DNA of 39,605 nt, taken from NCBI GenBank assembly GCA_018673955.1, contig JABHBJ010000060.1, forward strand, positions 1 to 39,605. The letters run 5' to 3'. The notes beneath the pieces were generated by a model, which saw only the letters and a list, made by a program, of their open reading frames with translations, did not search any database and was not told where the DNA came from. Positions 17,240 to 36,661 of this stretch are shown here, piece after piece; the stretch's first letter is position 1; the number at the start of each line of letters is the position of its first letter. Source of the DNA: Chloroflexota bacterium. Its GTDB lineage: Bacteria; Chloroflexota; Dehalococcoidia; Lucifugimonadales; Lucifugimonadaceae. Position numbers and translations under genes: made by a program.

Positions 17240-18235
17240 ATGAGCGAAATCAAGCAGGTTGATGTATTGATTGTTGGGCAGGGCGCAGCAGCGTTCTCTG
17301 CCGGCCTATACTCGTCCCGGTATCAAATGGAAACACTGATTGCTGGTGAGCAGTTTGGTGGCGAAACAGCGATTGGTGGAATGATAGAAAACTATCCGGG
17401 CCAGCCTGATATCGACGGTTTTGATCTTATGATGAAGTTCAAGGAGCAGGTCGACAAGCTTGAAACTCCTACCGAGTACTCTAACGTCACAGCTGTCGAA
17501 AAGAACGGCGACGTGTACCGAGCAACCCTCGAAAACGGTACTCAGGTCGATGCAATATCGATCATATTAGCTGTTGGGCGTGAGCGTCGGAAACTCTCTC
17601 TACCCAAAGAAGAAGAGTGGACAGGAAACGGCGTTTCTTACTGTTCTACTTGCGATGCCCCTCTCTATCGAAACAAAAAATCTGCAGCTGTTGTTGGTGG
17701 TGGTAATGCCGCTGTTGAAGGTGCAGTGCTTTTGGCGAAGTACGCAGAGACTGTCTACCTAATTTATCGACGCGACAAGCTGACTCGACCAGAGCCCATT
17801 TTATTGAAGGTTCTTGCTCAGACCGACAACGTTAAGGTTCTGTATTCCACGGAAGTCGCCGAACTTCTCGGTTCCGACGATGCTGGCCTTACGGGAATTC
17901 GTATTAGCCAGCCTTGGGAAGGACATGATGAACTGACGATCGACGGCCTGTTTGTTGAAGCGGGTGCCGATCCACGATTAGAAATCCCTGATCAGTTGGG
18001 CTTGGAAATAAACCCGGACACAGGCGAAGTTCATGTCGATAAGGGCCTGAACACTTCGGTTCAGGGTATCTACGCTGCGGGTGATCTCACAGACGGTACA
18101 GAACTCAAACAGACGATCACGGCTGCGTCTCAAGGAGCGATAGCCGCCCTTTCTGCCTACCAGCATGTGCTGGAAGTGAAGTCGGGCTGGCAAGAAGCTG
18201 CAACGTCGACGCCTGCTGGCGTTTCCGGCGACTAA
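17240..18235 (+). CDS. Thioredoxin reductase-like NAD(P)H:disulfide oxidoreductase
   Basis: A 331-residue two-Rossmann flavoprotein of TrxB type. The N-terminal FAD loop reads V-G-Q-G-A-A-A-F-S-A near 12-21 (the usual GxGPAG Pro is Ala). The redox-active disulfide is C-S-T-C-D at residues 135-139, matching TrxB C-A-T-C-D, and the NADPH loop is V-V-G-G-G-N-A-A near 151-158. The C-terminal FAD motif G-I-Y-A-A-G-D is near 274. ATG 17240 is preceded by GAGGGA, a good ribosome binding site. A thioredoxin gene is not adjacent. It probably delivers electrons to thioredoxin or a peroxiredoxin; the altered first loop leaves room for a related ferredoxin/flavodoxin-type role. Confidence 0.87.
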   Translation: MSEIKQVDVLIVGQGAAAFSAGLYSSRYQMETLIAGEQFGGETAIGGMIENYPGQPDIDGFDLMMKFKEQVDKLETPTEYSNVTAVEKNGDVYRATLENGTQVDAISIILAVGRERRKLSLPKEEEWTGNGVSYCSTCDAPLYRNKKSAAVVGGGNAAVEGAVLLAKYAETVYLIYRRDKLTRPEPILLKVLAQTDNVKVLYSTEVAELLGSDDAGLTGIRISQPWEGHDELTIDGLFVEAGADPRLEIPDQLGLEINPDTGEVHVDKGLNTSVQGIYAAGDLTDGTELKQTITAASQGAIAALSAYQHVLEVKSGWQEAATSTPAGVSGD

Positions 18236-19083: not shown

Positions 19084-20403
19084 CTAAATAGCGCCAGTTT
19101 TGCGAAGAATATCGCCCGCAATCAAGAAGCAACCGGCGTGGAATCCTATTACGCTCAGACCCGTGCCCTGGGCCGAGTATCCGGCCGGGTATAGACCTTG
19201 AATATCGACAGATTCGAACGTTGCTTGATCGACTACTAGTTGGTTCAACTGGAACCGGAAATTGTCGTGTTTAGCGTGGAACGTAAGGTCTCTGTACGAT
19301 CTGAGAATTTCGTAGTCGGGATCGCCACCGATCTCGACTACGGCGTGATCGATCTGAAGCTGTATCAGGCCTTCTCTGGTGTTGATTGTCGTTAGGCCGC
19401 CGGGTTCGAATGCTGTGACATTCGATTCATACAGCAGACCCATTCGTTCTTGCTCACCAGCTAGGATTTCGCCCCAGCGTTGGTAGTACGGAAGGAACTG
19501 TGAATCATTGATGAGCTTCAGGTGGGATTCTGGATTTTGCCGCATCACGTACACAACGATTTTTCCGGCGTCGTGTAGTTCCTGGGCCGCCCAGTCTGCA
19601 GATCTTCCACCACCAACGACCATCACGCGCTCCCCGGGGTAGTCTTCAGGGTGCTTGTATGCGAGCGAAACATAGTTTTGGTCCGATCCGTTGGCTTCTA
19701 GCTTTCGGATGGCAGAGCGTGGTCCGACACCGAAAACGACATAGTCACAGGAATATTTCGTCTCTTCACCGGTTGCCTGATCGACCGCTTCAACGGTGAA
19801 CCGTGCGTTGATGTGTTCATCGGCAGGTGAAACGTTAGTGACCTTTACGCCAGAGAGTATGTGGTCGTTAAGCCCGAGTTCTTCAGCGAATGCCTGATAA
19901 TAAGAGACGAGATCGTTTCTATGAACTAAAGCGTTGGTGTCACGATCTCGGCCAGTCTGTTCGTAGAACTTTGCAATCGGGTATTGCGCAAGCTCCATCC
20001 AGTGAGCAGGTCCGAGCGTCATCTGCTCTTTGGGTGTCTTGTTCCAAAGTCCACCGGGACCATCAGTAGTAAGCATTAGCCAGTCGGCGCGGTCGTTCTT
20101 CGTGAATTTTAGAGTCCACTCGTCGAGAGGAAGCGCGTCCTGAATCGGATGATGACGCATTCGATAGAACTCGATCGGACGGTGTCCACGTTCGAGCAGT
20201 TCGTGCAGATCAAACGCTAACGGGTTTTGCTCGTGTGTTCTTGCAAAATTTTGAACTTCGGGTGAAGGAAACTCGTAGTCGCCCTCAAATCGTGGATGCC
20301 AGCCTTCGAGAGTTGCCGCAACACCAAGGCCACCGGGGCCGCCTCCCGCAATAATCACACTGTGGTGCTGCAAAGTTTTTCCTAGTTCGTCGATACTCTG
20401 CAC
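19084..20403 (-). CDS. FAD/NAD(P)-dependent oxidoreductase, flavin monooxygenase-like
   Basis: A 439-residue flavoprotein. The first dinucleotide fold is V-I-I-A-G-G-G-P-G-G-L-G near residues 16-27 (FAD) and the second is V-M-V-V-G-G-G-R-S-A-D-W near 253-264 (NAD(P)H), the two-domain plan of FMO/TrkA-like proteins. A C-terminal G-L-Y-P-A-G-Y-S-A-Q-G-T-G segment near 400 closes the FAD site. The exact FMO fingerprint is not seen, so monooxygenase activity is an inference; pyridine-nucleotide oxidoreductase is the safe level. SAR202-type genomes are known to be rich in such flavoproteins. A palindromic TetR-type operator candidate lies 144 bp upstream. Confidence 0.8.
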   Translation of the reverse strand: MQSIDELGKTLQHHSVIIAGGGPGGLGVAATLEGWHPRFEGDYEFPSPEVQNFARTHEQNPLAFDLHELLERGHRPIEFYRMRHHPIQDALPLDEWTLKFTKNDRADWLMLTTDGPGGLWNKTPKEQMTLGPAHWMELAQYPIAKFYEQTGRDRDTNALVHRNDLVSYYQAFAEELGLNDHILSGVKVTNVSPADEHINARFTVEAVDQATGEETKYSCDYVVFGVGPRSAIRKLEANGSDQNYVSLAYKHPEDYPGERVMVVGGGRSADWAAQELHDAGKIVVYVMRQNPESHLKLINDSQFLPYYQRWGEILAGEQERMGLLYESNVTAFEPGGLTTINTREGLIQLQIDHAVVEIGGDPDYEILRSYRDLTFHAKHDNFRFQLNQLVVDQATFESVDIQGLYPAGYSAQGTGLSVIGFHAGCFLIAGDILRKTGAI

Positions 20404-27302: not shown

Positions 27303-28549
27303 CGATCTTTCAAGAATCTCAACGACGTCCCGTCATTGTTCAAAAATATGGAGGGAGCTCGCTCGCCACATCCGAACATATTCACAACGTAGCTGCTCGT
27401 ATTCAGGCTCGTAAAGACGAAGGCGTTGACGTAATAGTTGTCGTTTCAGCAATGGGTGATTCTACGGATGATCTCATTGCGCTTTCTGATGCCGTTACGA
27501 ACGGTCAAACTCCTGATGCCCGCGAGATGGACACCCTACTCTCTACAGGCGAGCTCGTTAGTTCGACTCTGATGGCAATGGCCTTGAAAGCACGCGGATA
27601 CGATGCAATTAGCCTGAGCGGTATTCAGGCAGGTATCAAGACCGATATGGTTCATGGATCCGCTCGAATCGCAGATATCAACACTGATCGCCTACGACGA
27701 GAGCTCGATAACGACAGAATCGTCATTGTTGCCGGTTTTCAAGGCTTGGCGGAGTCGGGCGATATAACGACTCTTGGTAGAGGTGGATCAGACACAACAG
27801 CTGTCGCTCTCGCGGTTGCTTCTGAAGCGGAACGCTGTGAGATTTATACTGACGTTGATGGCATATATACAACGGACCCACGACTAACCGATAGGGCGCG
27901 AAAACTTTCTGAAATCGGTTTTCAAGAAATGCTGGAAATGGCTGTGCTTGGGGCCAAAATGAATCCGCGTTCGATTGAACTTGGCGCTGTTTACGATATG
28001 CCGGTTTACGTGGCGTCATCATTCTCGAACGAACCCGGAACGCTTATACACGGAGGAGAGCACACAATGGAAGTCCGCAAGGCGGTAACTGGAATCGCAA
28101 TCGACCGAAATGTTGGCAAGATCACCGTTCGGGGGGTTATTGATCGACCCGGAGTCGCTGCCGGCTTGCTGCAACCACTCGCCGATGCTGGCGTAAGCGT
28201 TGACGTTATCGTTCAGAATGCCAGTTCGGATGGCACGACCGATTTCACATTCACAGTCGCTCAGGCAAGCGTCGACAGGGCGGCTGAAGTGATTGGACGC
28301 GATTCAACTGTCCAATACGCCGAAGTCGTTACTGGTTCCGATCTCGCCAAAGTGAGTATTGTTGGCACGGGTATGGAAAATGCCCCCGGATACGCAGCAA
28401 GGATGTTCTCGACGCTTTCCGAAGTTGGTGTGAATATCGATATGATCACAACATCTGAAATCCGGATCACTACGATCATTGATCGAGATCAGGTTCAGAA
28501 AGCAGTTAAAGCGTTGCACGATGCATTTGAACTCGAAAAATCCGAGTAG
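27299..28549 (+). CDS. lysC: Aspartate kinase (monofunctional, two ACT domains)
   Basis: A 416-residue kinase catalysing the first step of lysine, threonine and methionine synthesis. The catalytic amino-acid-kinase domain has V-Q-K-Y-G-G-S-S-L-A near 14-23, G-R-G-G-S-D-T-T-A near 166-174 and E-I-Y-T-D-V-D-G near 188-195. Two regulatory ACT domains follow from about residue 265 (G-K-I-T-V-R-G-V-I-D-R-P-G) and 345 (V-S-I-V-G-T-G-M). It starts in the last codon of thrB. Feedback control by lysine/threonine is typical of the family; effector specificity cannot be read here. Confidence 0.96.
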   Translation: MTIFQESQRRPVIVQKYGGSSLATSEHIHNVAARIQARKDEGVDVIVVVSAMGDSTDDLIALSDAVTNGQTPDAREMDTLLSTGELVSSTLMAMALKARGYDAISLSGIQAGIKTDMVHGSARIADINTDRLRRELDNDRIVIVAGFQGLAESGDITTLGRGGSDTTAVALAVASEAERCEIYTDVDGIYTTDPRLTDRARKLSEIGFQEMLEMAVLGAKMNPRSIELGAVYDMPVYVASSFSNEPGTLIHGGEHTMEVRKAVTGIAIDRNVGKITVRGVIDRPGVAAGLLQPLADAGVSVDVIVQNASSDGTTDFTFTVAQASVDRAAEVIGRDSTVQYAEVVTGSDLAKVSIVGTGMENAPGYAARMFSTLSEVGVNIDMITTSEIRITTIIDRDQVQKAVKALHDAFELEKSE

Positions 28550-28598
28550 ACTCTCTTCCGATTAGACACCAGAAGCAATATTTCCACGAATTCGTAAT

Positions 28599-29363
28599 TT
28601 GACCCACCCGTACTTGAGCGTTGTGATTCCCGCCTACAACGAGGAAGCTCGGATCGCGTCGACGGTAAAGGCGTTGGTCGAGTATCTGGCGATATGGTCG
28701 GCTGAAGTGAAAGATCGTGCATGGGAGCTAATCGTGGTGAGCGATGGCTCAACTGATTCGACTGCCAAGATTGTTTCTCAAATATCGAATTCTGACAGTC
28801 ACGTTCGTCTTATCGACGCTCCTCACGGTGGTAAAGGCGCTGCAGTTCGCCGTGGAATGGACGAGGCGACAGGCGATTGGCGGTTCCTTTGCGATGCAGA
28901 TCTTTCGATGCCTGTCGATAATTTGGGTCGTTTCTTTGGCGATAGCGGTGGGCATCCACCGTTCGATGTCGCAATTGGCTCTCGTGAAGCTCCTGGCGCT
29001 CGGCGGTTCGATGAACCCCGAAGTCGACACATCAAAGGCAGGCTATTCAACTTCGCTGTCAAGGGTCTTGCGATTCGAGGTATAGAAGACACTCAGTGCG
29101 GTTTCAAGCTGTTCTCTGCTGAATCGGCACAGAAGCTATTCCCGCATCAATCACTCGATGGTTGGGCGTTCGATGTCGAACTGCTTGTGATGGCGAAGAA
29201 CGCAAAGTTCTCAGTAGGTGAAGTCCCTATCGATTGGTACTACGGTGAAGGTTCGAAAATGACTTTCTCAAAGGGAATTATCGCCGTTTTGGATGTGGCG
29301 CGTGTGGGAGTAAATAACTTGATGAGGAAGTACCGAGTCGTTGAGAAGAAGCGAGAGGCATGA
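28599..29363 (+). CDS. Family 2 glycosyltransferase, dolichyl-phosphate glucosyltransferase (ALG5)-like
   Basis: A 254-residue GT-A enzyme likely transferring a sugar from a nucleotide sugar to polyprenyl phosphate on the cytoplasmic membrane face. Motifs: V-V-I-P-A-Y-N-E-E-A-R near 7-17, V-V-S-D-G-S-T-D-S-T near 46-55, the DXD-like F-L-C-D-A-D-L-S-M-P near 95-104, and D-T-Q-C-G-F-K-L-F near 162 with D-G-W-A-F-D-V-E near 180, both characteristic of the ALG5/Dpm group. No C-terminal membrane helix. TTG start, 49 bp after lysC. Its stop overlaps the start of the CoA-binding gene by 4 bp. Confidence 0.87.
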   Translation: MTHPYLSVVIPAYNEEARIASTVKALVEYLAIWSAEVKDRAWELIVVSDGSTDSTAKIVSQISNSDSHVRLIDAPHGGKGAAVRRGMDEATGDWRFLCDADLSMPVDNLGRFFGDSGGHPPFDVAIGSREAPGARRFDEPRSRHIKGRLFNFAVKGLAIRGIEDTQCGFKLFSAESAQKLFPHQSLDGWAFDVELLVMAKNAKFSVGEVPIDWYYGEGSKMTFSKGIIAVLDVARVGVNNLMRKYRVVEKKREA

Positions 29364-32782: not shown

Positions 32783-33586
32783 TCAGGCTGAGAGCGATTG
32801 AAGCAGCATTGGCAGTGCTTCTCCCGCGGTCGAGCGCAAAGATACCTTACAAATCGACGTAAGTTTCGTTTCGGTGGGGTTGATCTCGATAATAGTTGCG
32901 CCCGATGCCTCAGCGATCCACAGCAGCCCGCTAGCAGGTCGAACGGTGGCAGAGGTGCCGATTGCCAGTACGCAGTCGGCTTTGTCGATTTCCGCTCGGG
33001 CAGAGGCCATCACGTCGCTAGGTATAGGTTCGCCAAACATCACGGTGTCGAACTTGACTAGTCCATCGCACTTTTTGCACGGGTCGGGAGCGAACAACGG
33101 AACGAAATCGCCTAGCGACTCGCGATCTCCACATTCGATACAGCGGAGCTTTGTTCGATTACCGTGGATTTCGATTAGATTTTCGAGTCCGGCTTTTTCA
33201 TCGAGTGCATCGATATTTTGCGTTACTAGTGATCGAATCGAGCCGATTTTCTCTAATTCTGCGAGGGCGTAATGACCAGCGTGCGGTTCAGCAGTTGCGA
33301 GCGCGTCTCGTAGTTCGATTATGTGATCGTCGATCTTTTCGTTCGTTCGACGATTCCACCAGCCAGTAGGATCTTTTTTGAACTGCGAATAGCCGTCCAT
33401 TTTTGGAGCGCCGTACTTGGTCCAAAGACCGTCGACTCCTCGAAACGGTGGTATTCCGCTTTCGACCGACATGCCCGCTCCGGTCATTCCAACGACGTAG
33501 CTGGATTCTCTGACGATCTCGGCAATTTGTTCGATGCCGTTGTTCAGTTCGGAATTTGGTGAACCGCTTGCTTGGATATTAGTCAT
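32783..33586 (-). CDS. Sir2-family NAD-dependent protein deacylase (sirtuin)
   Basis: A 267-residue sirtuin. Visible: G-M-T-G-A-G-M-S-V-E-S-G-I-P-P-F-R-G near 33-50 (NAD Rossmann loop), V-T-Q-N-I-D near 119-124, catalytic His in E-I-H-G near 138-141, the structural zinc site C-I-E-C...C-K-K-C (near 148-151 and 169-172), and V-M-F-G-E near 182. Removes acetyl or other acyl groups from lysines using NAD; acyl preference is open. Starts inside the end of recF (8-bp overlap), so it is co-transcribed with recF. Confidence 0.93.
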   Translation of the reverse strand: MTNIQASGSPNSELNNGIEQIAEIVRESSYVVGMTGAGMSVESGIPPFRGVDGLWTKYGAPKMDGYSQFKKDPTGWWNRRTNEKIDDHIIELRDALATAEPHAGHYALAELEKIGSIRSLVTQNIDALDEKAGLENLIEIHGNRTKLRCIECGDRESLGDFVPLFAPDPCKKCDGLVKFDTVMFGEPIPSDVMASARAEIDKADCVLAIGTSATVRPASGLLWIAEASGATIIEINPTETKLTSICKVSLRSTAGEALPMLLQSLSA

Positions 33587-34778
33587 TCGAAAGAGGGGTG
33601 GCGATGGCGTCTTGAGTGACTCGTCCGTTCATGACTGTGTAGATATCGGCGGTTTCGAGATATTCCTGCGGAACGATGCCCGGTTCGGTAGATGTGAGCA
33701 GGACTTGCTCGTGCTTGGTTGCAGCTTCGATCACCAATAAGCGTCTTTCGGGATCAAGCTCAGAGAGAATATCGTCGAGGGCAAGGACGGGCGTTCGACC
33801 TGTCGAGCGAGTAACGAATATCGCTTCAGCCAGCTTTAGTGAAAGGGCAATAGTGCGAGATTGCCCACGTGAAGCAAGGTTCTGGGCAGGTTTGTCGTTT
33901 AGGCGAATTTCTAGGTCGTCTCTATGCGGCCCCATCACCGTCACGCCCTGCGCAATTTCGCGTCGGCGTAACCCGGGTAGAGCTTTCTTCATCTCTTGCT
34001 CGATCATTTCGGCGGTCATGGCGCCAACGTTCGGTCGATCGTCAGATGATGCCGTGATCCGAGGGCGATACTCGAGTTCGAGCTTATCGCCGTTGGTTAG
34101 ATCGCTATGGGCGGGAACTGCGTGTTCGTTGAGTCCATCGATAGATCGCCTGCGGGAATCGGTTACTCGTGCGCCTTCGTACGCCAGCCGATCATCCCAA
34201 AAAGTTAGTTCGTCAGGCTCAGATAGACCGTCACGAACCCGACGCAGCAGTTGGTTTCGCTGGGTAACGACTTGCCCGTATCGCTGGAGCGATTTCAGAT
34301 AGGCGGGATCGGATTGTGAGATTAGAATGTCGAGGTATCGACGGCGTCGACCGGGCGATCCGTGAATTATTTCGAGATCGTCTGCTTCGAAAAATACGAT
34401 ATTCAGGTTGCCAACGAAATCGATTGCTGAACGTTTGATTCCGTTCACTCGCAGTCCCTTACGGAAGCCAACGTTGCCGTTGGTGGTCGTAGCCGCAGTT
34501 ACATCGACATCGATTTGTGCCTGCGTGGTCGTGTCGCCTTCTCGGCCTACCCCGAGCACCTGCATGTGCCCGCCAGTTTCCGCAAGTGACCAGTTTACGA
34601 GCTCTCGTTCGTGAGACGACCGGGAAGATTTTGCAATTGCCAGCATGTAGGCGGCTTCGAGCAGATTGCTTTTGCCGTGACCGTTTTGACCCTGAAACAG
34701 CGTTAATCCGGGTCGCAACTCTAGCTCGGTATTTGTGTGGTTTCGAAAACCAGTTAGCGATAGCCGAGACAGATAGAT
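33579..34778 (-). CDS. recF: DNA replication and repair protein RecF, apparently starting at AUC
   Basis: A 399-residue SMC-like ATPase that loads RecA at gaps. Walker A is G-Q-N-G-H-G-K-S-N; the ABC signature region is L-A-S-R-G-Q-S-R-T near 305, and Walker B is L-A-L-D-D-I-L-S-E-L-D near 340-350, typical of RecF. The frame around TTG 34718 begins in the middle of the N-terminal beta strand; the family start M-Y-L-x-x-L-S-L-T-x-F-R-N is found upstream in frame as I-Y-L-S-R-L-S-L-T-G-F-R-N-H. The Met position is ATC at 34778, with AAGGG 8 bp upstream; no ATG/GTG/TTG occurs before the upstream TAG. First gene of recF-sir2-aminotransferase. Confidence 0.9.
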   Translation of the reverse strand: MYLSRLSLTGFRNHTNTELELRPGLTLFQGQNGHGKSNLLEAAYMLAIAKSSRSSHERELVNWSLAETGGHMQVLGVGREGDTTTQAQIDVDVTAATTTNGNVGFRKGLRVNGIKRSAIDFVGNLNIVFFEADDLEIIHGSPGRRRRYLDILISQSDPAYLKSLQRYGQVVTQRNQLLRRVRDGLSEPDELTFWDDRLAYEGARVTDSRRRSIDGLNEHAVPAHSDLTNGDKLELEYRPRITASSDDRPNVGAMTAEMIEQEMKKALPGLRRREIAQGVTVMGPHRDDLEIRLNDKPAQNLASRGQSRTIALSLKLAEAIFVTRSTGRTPVLALDDILSELDPERRLLVIEAATKHEQVLLTSTEPGIVPQEYLETADIYTVMNGRVTQDAIATPLSND

Positions 34779-34982: not shown

Positions 34983-36065
34983 ATGCATAAGGTTGTTGGG
35001 TTAGGGCTGATGGCTCTATTAATTGGATACGTGTTGTGGATCGCGACGGCTGGCACGACGGTTCCTGCGGCGGAGACGGTTGTGGTGAATTCAGATACCG
35101 CTCGTAACGCTTCAGAAGAGCAAACTCTGGATATTGTGACATTGCTCGGCTTCGACGCTATTGTTTCGATTGAAAATCCTAGGTTCGTCGATCAATCCAC
35201 GGCAGACGAAACATACGATCCAGGCGAGTTGGTGCTTGGTGTCGAGATCGACGGTGATGCACGCGCATATTCGGTACCGCTGTTGAGTCGACATGAGATT
35301 GTGAACGATGTGGTCGGAGGAAAACCGATCGCGGTCACTTGGTGACCTCTTTGCTTTACTGGAATCGGGTATTCCAGAGAAATTAGCGGCGTTGTTCACG
35401 AGTTTGGCGTTTCGGGCAAGTTGATCATGAACGCTCTGGTTATGTACGATCGCGAGACTGGGTCGCTATGGAGCCAGTTCTTGTCGCAATCAGTTCAAGG
35501 TGAGCTTGCTGGAACCAAACTAGAAACGGTTCCACTCACTCTCACCACGTGGGATAAGTGGAAAGATACGCATCCTTCGACAGTCGCCTTGCGAAAAGGT
35601 AGTCGCGGGGCTGATCCGTACGACGGGTACTACTCTGGTCGCTCGGCGGGGGTGATTGGCGAATCGAATCGTGATGATCGACTGCCGACGAAGGAGTTGG
35701 TTCTAGGACTAGGTTTTGATTCAGAACCGGTAGCGTTTCCGCATTCCGAACTACGAACCGAGCAACTTGTTCAGCTTTCTCATTCGGGTCAGTCAACTGT
35801 GGTTTATTTTGATACTGCGTCCGACACTGCCCTCGCTTACAGCGCGGTAGTTGATGGCAAGGAGTTGGATTTCGAGTTGGTAGAACGAGATGGTCGTGAG
35901 TGGTTTCAAGACATTCAGACGAAAACACTGTGGGTGCCGTTTACGGGGCAGGCAGTTGAAGGCGAACTGGCAGGAAGCGCGCTGGAACGACTTCACGCGA
36001 TCAACGTGTTCTGGTTCGCTTGGAACGATTTCTATCCAGAAACTGCAATTTGGGGAGTCGGTTAG
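34983..36065 (+). CDS. DUF3179 protein with in-frame UGA at the first Cys of CPLC (candidate selenoprotein)
   Basis: One reading frame of 360 codons, interrupted only by TGA at codon 121 (35343-35345). ATG 34983 has GAGG 9 bp upstream. Residues 5-22 are a membrane anchor or signal. The DUF3179 domain follows: L-V-L-G-V-E-I-D-G-D-A-R-A-Y near 83-96, H-E-I-V-N-D-V-V-G-G-K-P-I-A-V-T-W near 104-120, then UGA-P-L-C. In this family that motif is normally C-P-L-C. Y-S-R-E, then L-V-M-Y-D-R-E-T-G-S-L-W-S-Q near 150 and a second, Cys-free half-repeat with N-V-F-W-F-A-W near the end are intact. Either UGA encodes selenocysteine at 121 or the gene has one nonsense mutation. Extracytoplasmic location is likely; the family function is unknown. 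Confidence 0.75.
35346..35381 (+). promoter_or_regulatory. SECIS-like stem-loop directly downstream of the UGA
   Basis: Seven perfect base pairs (CTGGAAT 35359-35365 with ATTCCAG 35371-35377) close the pentaloop CGGGT. After an A-A mismatch three weaker pairs (35355-35357 with 35379-35381) extend it. The loop starts 20 nt after the UGA and contains GGU, as in the E. coli fdhF SECIS (loop AGGUCU, 17 nt after UGA). Spacing and loop fit the bacterial SECIS pattern; recognition by SelB is inference. Confidence 0.5.
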
Positions 36066-36145: not shown

Positions 36146-36661
36146 TTGGATCTCAAAGCGCTGATTCGTGACGTTCCTGACTACCCTTCCGAGGGCATAC
36201 TTTTTCGCGATCTGACGCCTGTTATGGCCGATCCGAAGGCGATGCTGCACATCACCGAGACCCTGTCGGAGCGTTTACGTTCATTGAACGTAGAAGCGCT
36301 TGCTGCGATCGACTCGCGTGGGTTCATTTTCGGCGCCCCGGTCGCTGCCGCCCTCGATATTCCGTTCGTGCCGATTCGTAAGGCAGGAAAACTTCCGCCT
36401 CCCGTTGTCGGCGTTGATTATTCGCTCGAATACGGAAGTGCTCGATTGGAAATGACGACCACAGCGGTCGGAAAAGGACAACGAGTGGCGGTCGTAGACG
36501 ATCTGCTTGCCACCGGCGGCTCGGCTGGTGCTGGGGTGAAGCTGGTAACCGAACTAGGTGCGGAAGTCGTTTCGATAGCATTTTTGGTTGAACTCGAGTT
36601 CTTGAACGGCAGATCTGTACTGCCAACCGGTATCGATGTGTTCAGCATGGTGAAGTACTAG
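36146..36661 (+). CDS. apt: Adenine phosphoribosyltransferase
   Basis: A 171-residue type I phosphoribosyltransferase converting adenine and PRPP to AMP (purine salvage). The N-terminus I-R-D-V-P-D-Y-P-S-E-G-I-L-F-R-D near 7-22 is diagnostic for Apt. Next are I-D-S-R-G-F-I-F-G near 54-62, I-R-K-A-G-K-L-P near 76-83, and the PRPP loop V-A-V-V-D-D-L-L-A-T-G-G-S near 116-128. The start is a TTG at 36146; a ribosome binding site is poor. The HAD gene follows after 2 bp. Confidence 0.95.
   Translation: MDLKALIRDVPDYPSEGILFRDLTPVMADPKAMLHITETLSERLRSLNVEALAAIDSRGFIFGAPVAAALDIPFVPIRKAGKLPPPVVGVDYSLEYGSARLEMTTTAVGKGQRVAVVDDLLATGGSAGAGVKLVTELGAEVVSIAFLVELEFLNGRSVLPTGIDVFSMVKY

Follow-up and report, generated by a model that had tools for sequence, protein, structure and literature searches.

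A DUF3179 gene with an in-frame UGA at a conserved cysteine position as a probable selenoprotein gene in a relative of Candidatus Lucifugimonas marina

The DUF3179 locus and its surroundings

The stretch of DNA analysed here (39,605 nucleotides, hereafter the window) contains a 360-codon frame on the forward strand at 34983-36065, running from ATG to TAG and interrupted by a single in-frame stop, the TGA of codon 121 (35343-35345). When the UGA is read through, the predicted protein contains the sequence VTW-U-PLC. The whole frame matches the Pfam family PF11376 (DUF3179) with 291.4 bits and an E-value of 1.1e-86, compared to a curated cut-off of 27 bits, and all 46 homologues in our alignment belong to the same family. 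The close orthologues can be aligned over residues 1 to 360, while no NCBIfam model meaningfully matched the window protein. U121-P-L-C124 corresponds to the C-x-x-C motif of DUF3179, with the putative Sec at its first position. The initial annotation had described a DUF3179 frame whose only UGA replaces the first Cys of CPLC at codon 121, a description borne out by both the frame and the PF11376 match.

Several features can be placed along this frame, all on the forward strand. Codons 2-22 (34986-35048) encode a hydrophobic helix, modelled by AlphaFold2 as H2-22 with a pLDDT of 60-76, which is probably a membrane anchor or signal sequence. Model secondary structure and an HH comparison of the two halves of the protein define a first repeat (residues about 83-196, 35229-35570), which contains U121-x-x-C124, and a second repeat of the same topology but devoid of Cys (residues about 239-350, 35697-36032). 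Cys124 (35352-35354) is the sole cysteine of the window protein. Downstream of the UGA lies a candidate bSECIS hairpin (35359-35377), identified by folding, pairing and covariation, with a 7-bp stem (35359-35365/35371-35377) and a CGGGT loop (CGGGU in RNA; 35366-35370, with a G at 35367). The stem begins 13 nt and the loop 20 nt after the UGA, confirming the position, stem length and loop given in the initial annotation.

The gene is flanked by a divergent RecF-like gene on the reverse strand (33579-34718, PF02463) and followed by an apt-like phosphoribosyltransferase gene on the forward strand (36146-36661, PF00156), each belonging to a BLAST cluster found in nine loci including the window. 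Among close relatives, SIR2-like, RecF-like, apt-like and HAD genes recur (clusters of 8-9 loci). No neighbour gene is common to most of the loci compared (the window stretch and L058-L107), the largest cluster other than DUF3179 itself comprising 10 loci. These ten (L067, L068, L069, L071, L073, L075, L080, L085, L087 and L096) have a gene of 219-316 aa from a single cluster upstream, which we take by eye to be acetyltransferase-like. A selD-like gene is located 1.8-3.4 kb from the UGA-containing DUF3179 gene in L058, L059, L060, L061, L101 and L091; the distance is ~3 kb in the five loci taken as genus members and ~1.8 kb in L091, whose selD-like gene falls in the same BLAST cluster. The window itself also carries two genes of flavin/pyridine-nucleotide oxidoreductase families according to Pfam (17240-18235 and 19084-20403), about 15-18 kb upstream. 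Among 28 stretches from viral contigs, no relative was found.

Sec machinery, the UGA codon and the hairpin

The window is a contig of a 2,208,531-base metagenome-assembled genome (MAG; 103 contigs, completeness 87.1%), which belongs to the same genus as Candidatus Lucifugimonas marina (SAR202). The MAG SI053_bin14 (85% identity) and the complete Ca. L. marina JH1073 genome (83%) contain the closest orthologues, and several of the named records matching the window protein carry a SAR202 label. Ca. L. marina is described as a cultured SAR202 bacterium, and SAR202 bacteria as ubiquitous in the ocean (PMC10444878); the main text of that paper contains no occurrence of ‘selen’.

A full set of Sec genes is present in the MAG, as the initial annotation had proposed to check. 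It comprises selA (515.9 bits), selB (326.9 bits, or 345.8 with its neighbour in frame), selD (363.2 bits) and tRNA-Sec (Rfam 66.4 bits, with anticodon TCA, i.e. UCA, according to ARAGORN). A second Rfam tRNA-Sec match above the cut-off is a tRNA-Ser according to ARAGORN. The selD gene, located on a contig other than the window (C96), has one in-frame UGA of its own in CAGUAGK, presumably the Sec site of SelD.

At the level of the order, selA lies above the cut-off in 201 of 250 genomes and is therefore too common for its presence to discriminate much; co-occurrence with selA is uninformative. A hand tally of rows down to E 1.3e-59 finds a TGA-containing DUF3179 row in 76 genomes (including G112, whose TGA falls outside the Sec column). 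Strong selA matches occur in 65 of these, and the remaining 11 genomes are MAGs of 56-90% completeness. Fourteen genomes contain DUF3179 but no selA above the cut-off: nine with a TGA copy (G010, 90% complete, G014, G055, G066, G141, G205, G215, G222 and G244, with G215 counted by a TGA of unplaced column) and five without (G150, 91% complete, G245, 97% complete, G053, G197 and G212). With a TGA copy in nine of these fourteen genomes, the comparison does not speak in favour of Sec. Most of these nine are incomplete MAGs (60-90%), and genes missing from such assemblies may account for TGA copies without selA.

An order-wide search detected DUF3179 matches in 165 of 250 genomes. The best 33 rows all contain TGA, so that the closest relatives do not carry TGC/TGT alone, and the first TGA-free row is the Cys twin from a tandem pair. 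From 193 alignments covering column 121, 150 with distinct local DNA were kept, rows with the same 48 nt being dropped. The codon at this column is TGA in 102 rows, TGC/TGT in 37 and another codon in 11, some of the latter being repeat-2 or poor alignments. At +3, all but one of the 102 TGA rows have Cys, and a further stop within the aligned stretch is seen in one (L162, from L. marina); the removal of duplicates hid one more broken copy from this count (L033/L061, in which residue 86 is an additional in-frame TGA and the frame breaks near residue 299). The 150-row set was baited with the Sec protein and its UGA share is biased as a result. A less biased count was obtained by a Pfam-profile search of 17 genomes of the order consisting of one or two contigs, picked for completeness, which yielded 56 matches, merged by hand into 51 DUF3179 genes. 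In these genes column 121 is TGA in 36, Cys in 11, Ser in three and Trp in one (TGG, L278), and each of the 17 genomes has at least one TGA-type gene. L. marina possesses six DUF3179 copies, four with TGA at the Sec column. In its paralogue L162 (G108:C1:2386800-2389200) a second in-frame TGA lies eight codons before the Sec UGA, which may be either a recent lesion or an exceptional arrangement.

The motifs among UGA rows of the order are UPLC, UTLC, UPIC, UILC, UIKC, UVLC, ULLC and UPVC, and several Sec subfamilies exist (UPLC-F/Y, UPIC, UTLC, UILC/UIKC/UVLC and UPLC-N). In a quick tree built from 132 proteins (96 with Sec, 33 with Cys and 3 other, all covering residues 70 to 330 and drawn from a set with bait bias toward Sec), the Sec label must change at least seven times, four of these changes being forced by starred branches; with shuffled labels the mean is 31.7. 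On this tree, Sec and Cys forms of DUF3179 have replaced each other a few times. Two adjoining UGA-bearing DUF3179 genes occur in L094 (4923-5711 and 5593-6942) and in G018:C1 (near 969086 and 970317). TGA-containing copies, with the TGA column unplaced, are also present outside the order (e.g. G630, G498, G539 and G381).

The hairpin of the window taken alone is within chance: the 48-nt stretch folds with -10.1 kcal/mol (z -0.41), a value equalled by 66 of 200 shuffles. Published rules for bSECIS elements specify a loop of 3-9 nt, a stem of 4-16 bp, a G in the first two loop positions, a distance of 16-37 nt from the UGA and an MFE of at most -7.5 kcal/mol (PMC13188914). The window hairpin conforms with its CGGGU loop, 7 bp, spacing of 20 and -9.4 kcal/mol (45 nt after the UGA). 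The same rules are satisfied by 84 of 102 UGA rows, the other 18 failing, and by 6 of the 37 rows with Cys; if folding is restricted to the local hairpin, the numbers are 70 UGA rows and 4 Cys rows. When six or more of the seven stem pairs are demanded at the fixed place, 82 of the 102 UGA rows qualify but none of the 37 TGC/TGT rows, any of which forms at most four. In a first set of 62 distinct UGA stretches, all 62 have G as their second loop base and each stem pair is formed in 59 to 62. When the rows are ranked against synonymous-codon shuffles, the lowest 5% is reached by 45% of those with UGA and by 16% of those with Cys.

The stem furthermore covaries. In an alignment of 42 rows, 98.0% of 294 stem cells pair and five of the seven pairs have changed on both sides. 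The number of double-changed compensatory cells (35) was matched by none of 500 shuffles. The covariation score is 0.396, compared to 0.102 for shuffled rows and at most 0.080 with the partner slid, the signal being lost on sliding by one to three columns. Four of five covariation measures lie above all 500 shuffles, while the fifth (pairs with double change) was reached by 5 of 500. The amino acids encoded by the stem track the RNA pairs: G-I-G-Y-S is found with GGA/UCC, G-I-G-Y-A with GGC/GCC, A-I-V-Y-G with GCC/GGC, A-I-V-Y-S with GCU/AGC and S-I-V-Y-A with AGC/GCU. The 23 nt covering the hairpin (ACTGGAATCGGGTATTCCAGAGA) are identical in the window, G119 and G108, despite a pS of ~0.67 after the UGA between the window and these two genomes. 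In G098 (L049/L064; JAQBUX010000064.1), a UGA copy with the stem stands in tandem with a TGT copy without it, a pair that can be considered a natural Sec/Cys control at the sequence level. It is the conservation of the UGA column (102 of 150 rows) together with the covariation of the stem that lifts the window hairpin above chance, and the earlier proposal of a bacterial SECIS element gains its support from these and from the agreement with the published rules.

The frame after the UGA is under purifying selection. Between the window and G119 (L057) or G108 (L058), dN/dS amounts to 0.053 and 0.064, respectively, in the part that follows the UGA; before the UGA it is 0.067 for G108 and saturated for G119, all values being approximate as synonymous sites are near saturation. 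Within the 19 genomes of the genus, an intact UGA orthologue is present in six (G000, the window assembly, G108, G119, G120, G121 and G124) and a broken one in four (G116, G122, G112 and G125), i.e. in 4 of 10 orthologues, those of G112 and G125 also being cut by contig ends and that of G125 lacking Cys124. The other nine genomes contain distant DUF3179 copies only. Judged by selection and this distribution, the gene is useful but dispensable. Contig C46 of the window assembly contains a decayed Cys-type paralogue (28275-29215; L111, L112), whose frame is broken and includes a TAG.

Such decay might suggest UGA-121 is itself a recent nonsense mutation in a pseudogene resembling the C46 paralogue and the four broken orthologues, and the initial annotation had named decayed genes nearby, together with lesions in sister copies, as points in favour of this alternative. 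Decay is indeed found among the DUF3179 relatives examined, but the window copy is intact and six intact UGA copies stand alongside the four broken ones, whose lesions are elsewhere in the frame (the G112 column encodes Arg, with no stop). A TGA at one and the same column in both row sets, the covarying hairpin and purifying selection that is similar after and before the UGA make a nonsense mutation very improbable, and the preference for Sec expressed in the initial annotation is upheld. We consider it just as improbable that the UGA is decoded as another amino acid, be it Trp through near-cognate read-through or any residue through genome-wide UGA reassignment. Read-through would likewise keep the downstream frame under selection, and one paralogue (L278) has Trp at the column. 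However, of the 61 distinct UGA-type DUF3179 frames with at least 300 codons, 24 terminate in TGA, only one of the 15 non-UGA genes at the site has Trp (compared to 11 with Cys and three with Ser), and the only UGA of the window frame falls exactly at the Cys column. Decoding as another amino acid would also leave the hairpin and the complete sel set unexplained.

The conserved UGA column, the covarying bSECIS hairpin at standard distance, the Sec machinery and purifying selection after the UGA hence all support UGA-121 as a Sec codon, and we assign a probability of roughly 0.93 to the window DUF3179 gene encoding a selenoprotein. In the proposed mechanism, SelB would bring Sec-tRNA-Sec to UGA-121 at the hairpin.

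Predicted fold and function

An AlphaFold2 model based on 46 sequences (mean pLDDT 92.1) consists of the N-terminal helix followed by two repeats with similar strand order. The two halves of the protein match each other in an HH comparison with a probability of 99.9 and an E-value of 8.2e-36, and DUF3179 is therefore an internal tandem duplication in which only the first repeat contains the redox motif, the second lacking it. Searches of solved structures by sequence gave no match with the single query and seven chance-level rows with a profile. By structure, NirD-like and Rieske proteins rank first among Foldseek matches of the whole model to the PDB, with a best E-value of 6.5e-3 and a probability of 1.00 for seven of the first eight rows. 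Repeat 1 folded alone yields the same class at a weaker E-value of 0.083 (rmsd 2.8 over 86 columns, probability 1.00 for one row). No Foldseek E-value lies under 0.001 for either the whole model or repeat 1, and the TM-scores by target length for 3c0d_C (0.53 and 0.57, respectively) accompany these weak E-values of 6.5e-3 and 0.083. The likeness of the DUF3179 model to Rieske and NirD proteins is thus a lead and no proof.

Rieske proteins bind their cluster through the motif C-x-H-X(15-17)-C-x-x-H. The C-x-H and C-x-x-H ligands of a [2Fe-2S] centre are absent from the window protein. With a single Cys (124) and a single Sec (121), it cannot form a 2Cys-2His cluster of the Rieske type. We considered the H104-X16-U121-P-L-C124 stretch as a mimic of the Rieske spacing and rejected it, there being no such HH alignment, no significant match for repeat 1 and no Cys at position 102. 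Rieske-domain matches are numerous in three genomes of the order (59 in G047, 55 in G161 and 37 in G145), with none to three in the 18 other genomes searched.

As the only cysteine, Cys124 is the one residue with which Sec121 could pair within the molecule. We consider it probable that Sec121 and Cys124 work as a redox pair, in which case the U-x-x-C centre would pass through a selenenylsulfide and the product would act as a thiol/selenol oxidoreductase. It is also conceivable that the protein is a selenoprotein in which Sec121 and Cys124, instead of forming a redox pair, bind a metal or serve a structural purpose within a Rieske/NirD-like fold. The Foldseek ranking of both the whole model and repeat 1 points in this direction, but none of its E-values is below 0.001, and HH comparison with the Rieske domains of related genomes is unsupportive (probability 0.7 for repeat 1 and 8 for repeat 2). 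We judge the metal or structural role unlikely and favour the Sec121-Cys124 redox pair. The predicted oxidoreductase is probably anchored in the membrane or exported: the N-terminal helix might hold the product at the membrane, or the product might be transported across it.

A broader proposal can be formulated only tentatively, and is in its entirety more doubtful than the redox pair. In this proposal, DUF3179 would combine a tandem Rieske/NirD-like fold devoid of Fe-S ligands with a U-x-x-C redox centre and would have become one of the chief selenium-using families of SAR202. Each genome would encode several paralogous exported selenol oxidoreductases, with UGA in ~70% of the copies, which would take part in redox chemistry on the surface of these widespread ocean bacteria.

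Relation to known selenoproteins and structures

DUF3179 is already known as a selenoprotein family. A ‘DUF3179 domain-containing protein, UxxC/T’ appears in lists of bacterial selenoproteins in two reviews, both crediting work by Zhang and Gladyshev (2007) on a symbiont of Olavius algarvensis (PMC9312934, PMC13188914). Together with the RefSeq product name ‘DUF3179 domain-containing (seleno)protein’, these lists overturn the suggestion of the initial annotation that the gene is a candidate for a new selenoprotein, in a family for which it was aware of no described example. The window gene is a member of this listed family and one of several UGA paralogues in the order. A table in a paper on Idiomarina names a DUF3179 protein, and a paper that mentions SAR202 reports SelA and SelB from bins of sponge symbionts. 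In the open-licence literature, preprints excluded, no paper was found that combines ‘selenoprotein’ with ‘SAR202’, and the portions of text available there gave nothing on SAR202 DUF3179 selenoproteins beyond the two reviews. Within that same literature, as far as its accessible text extends, the scale observed in the order (36 of 51 genes with UGA, and 17 of 17 genomes) was not found in print.

It is the spread of Sec-DUF3179 through this SAR202-relative order that merits specialist attention. A mostly UGA-encoded paralogous family in all 17 genomes would tie SAR202 physiology to selenium, and with a cultured species in the genus of the window, the function of DUF3179 could be tested in a grown strain. 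Gene calling with UGA as a stop would be expected to split most DUF3179 genes of the order.

The listed DUF3179 selenoprotein belongs, like the window protein, to the Pfam family PF11376 and has its Sec as the leading residue of U-x-x-C. According to the entries in the reviews it derives from a deltaproteobacterial symbiont, whereas the genes described here belong to SAR202 Chloroflexota, whose genomes contain several paralogues each and in which the motif varies. The RefSeq ‘(seleno)protein’ records are of the same family and are marked by NCBI as possible selenoproteins; those matching the window protein are six haloarchaeal plasmid proteins (28-32% identical). Cys-type DUF3179 proteins, such as that of the same genome on contig C22 (L109), have CPLC at the same column. 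Cys-type genes differ from the window gene in having TGT/TGC in place of UGA, and in forming four or fewer of the seven stem pairs at the SECIS position (37 rows). The best structural matches, the Rieske ferredoxins and NirD proteins (PDB 3c0d, 4aiv, 3d89 and 5cxm), reach TM-scores by target length of 0.39-0.63 with weak E-values. In contrast to these, the window protein has no C-x-H...C-x-x-H ligands but is a tandem duplication containing U-x-x-C instead.
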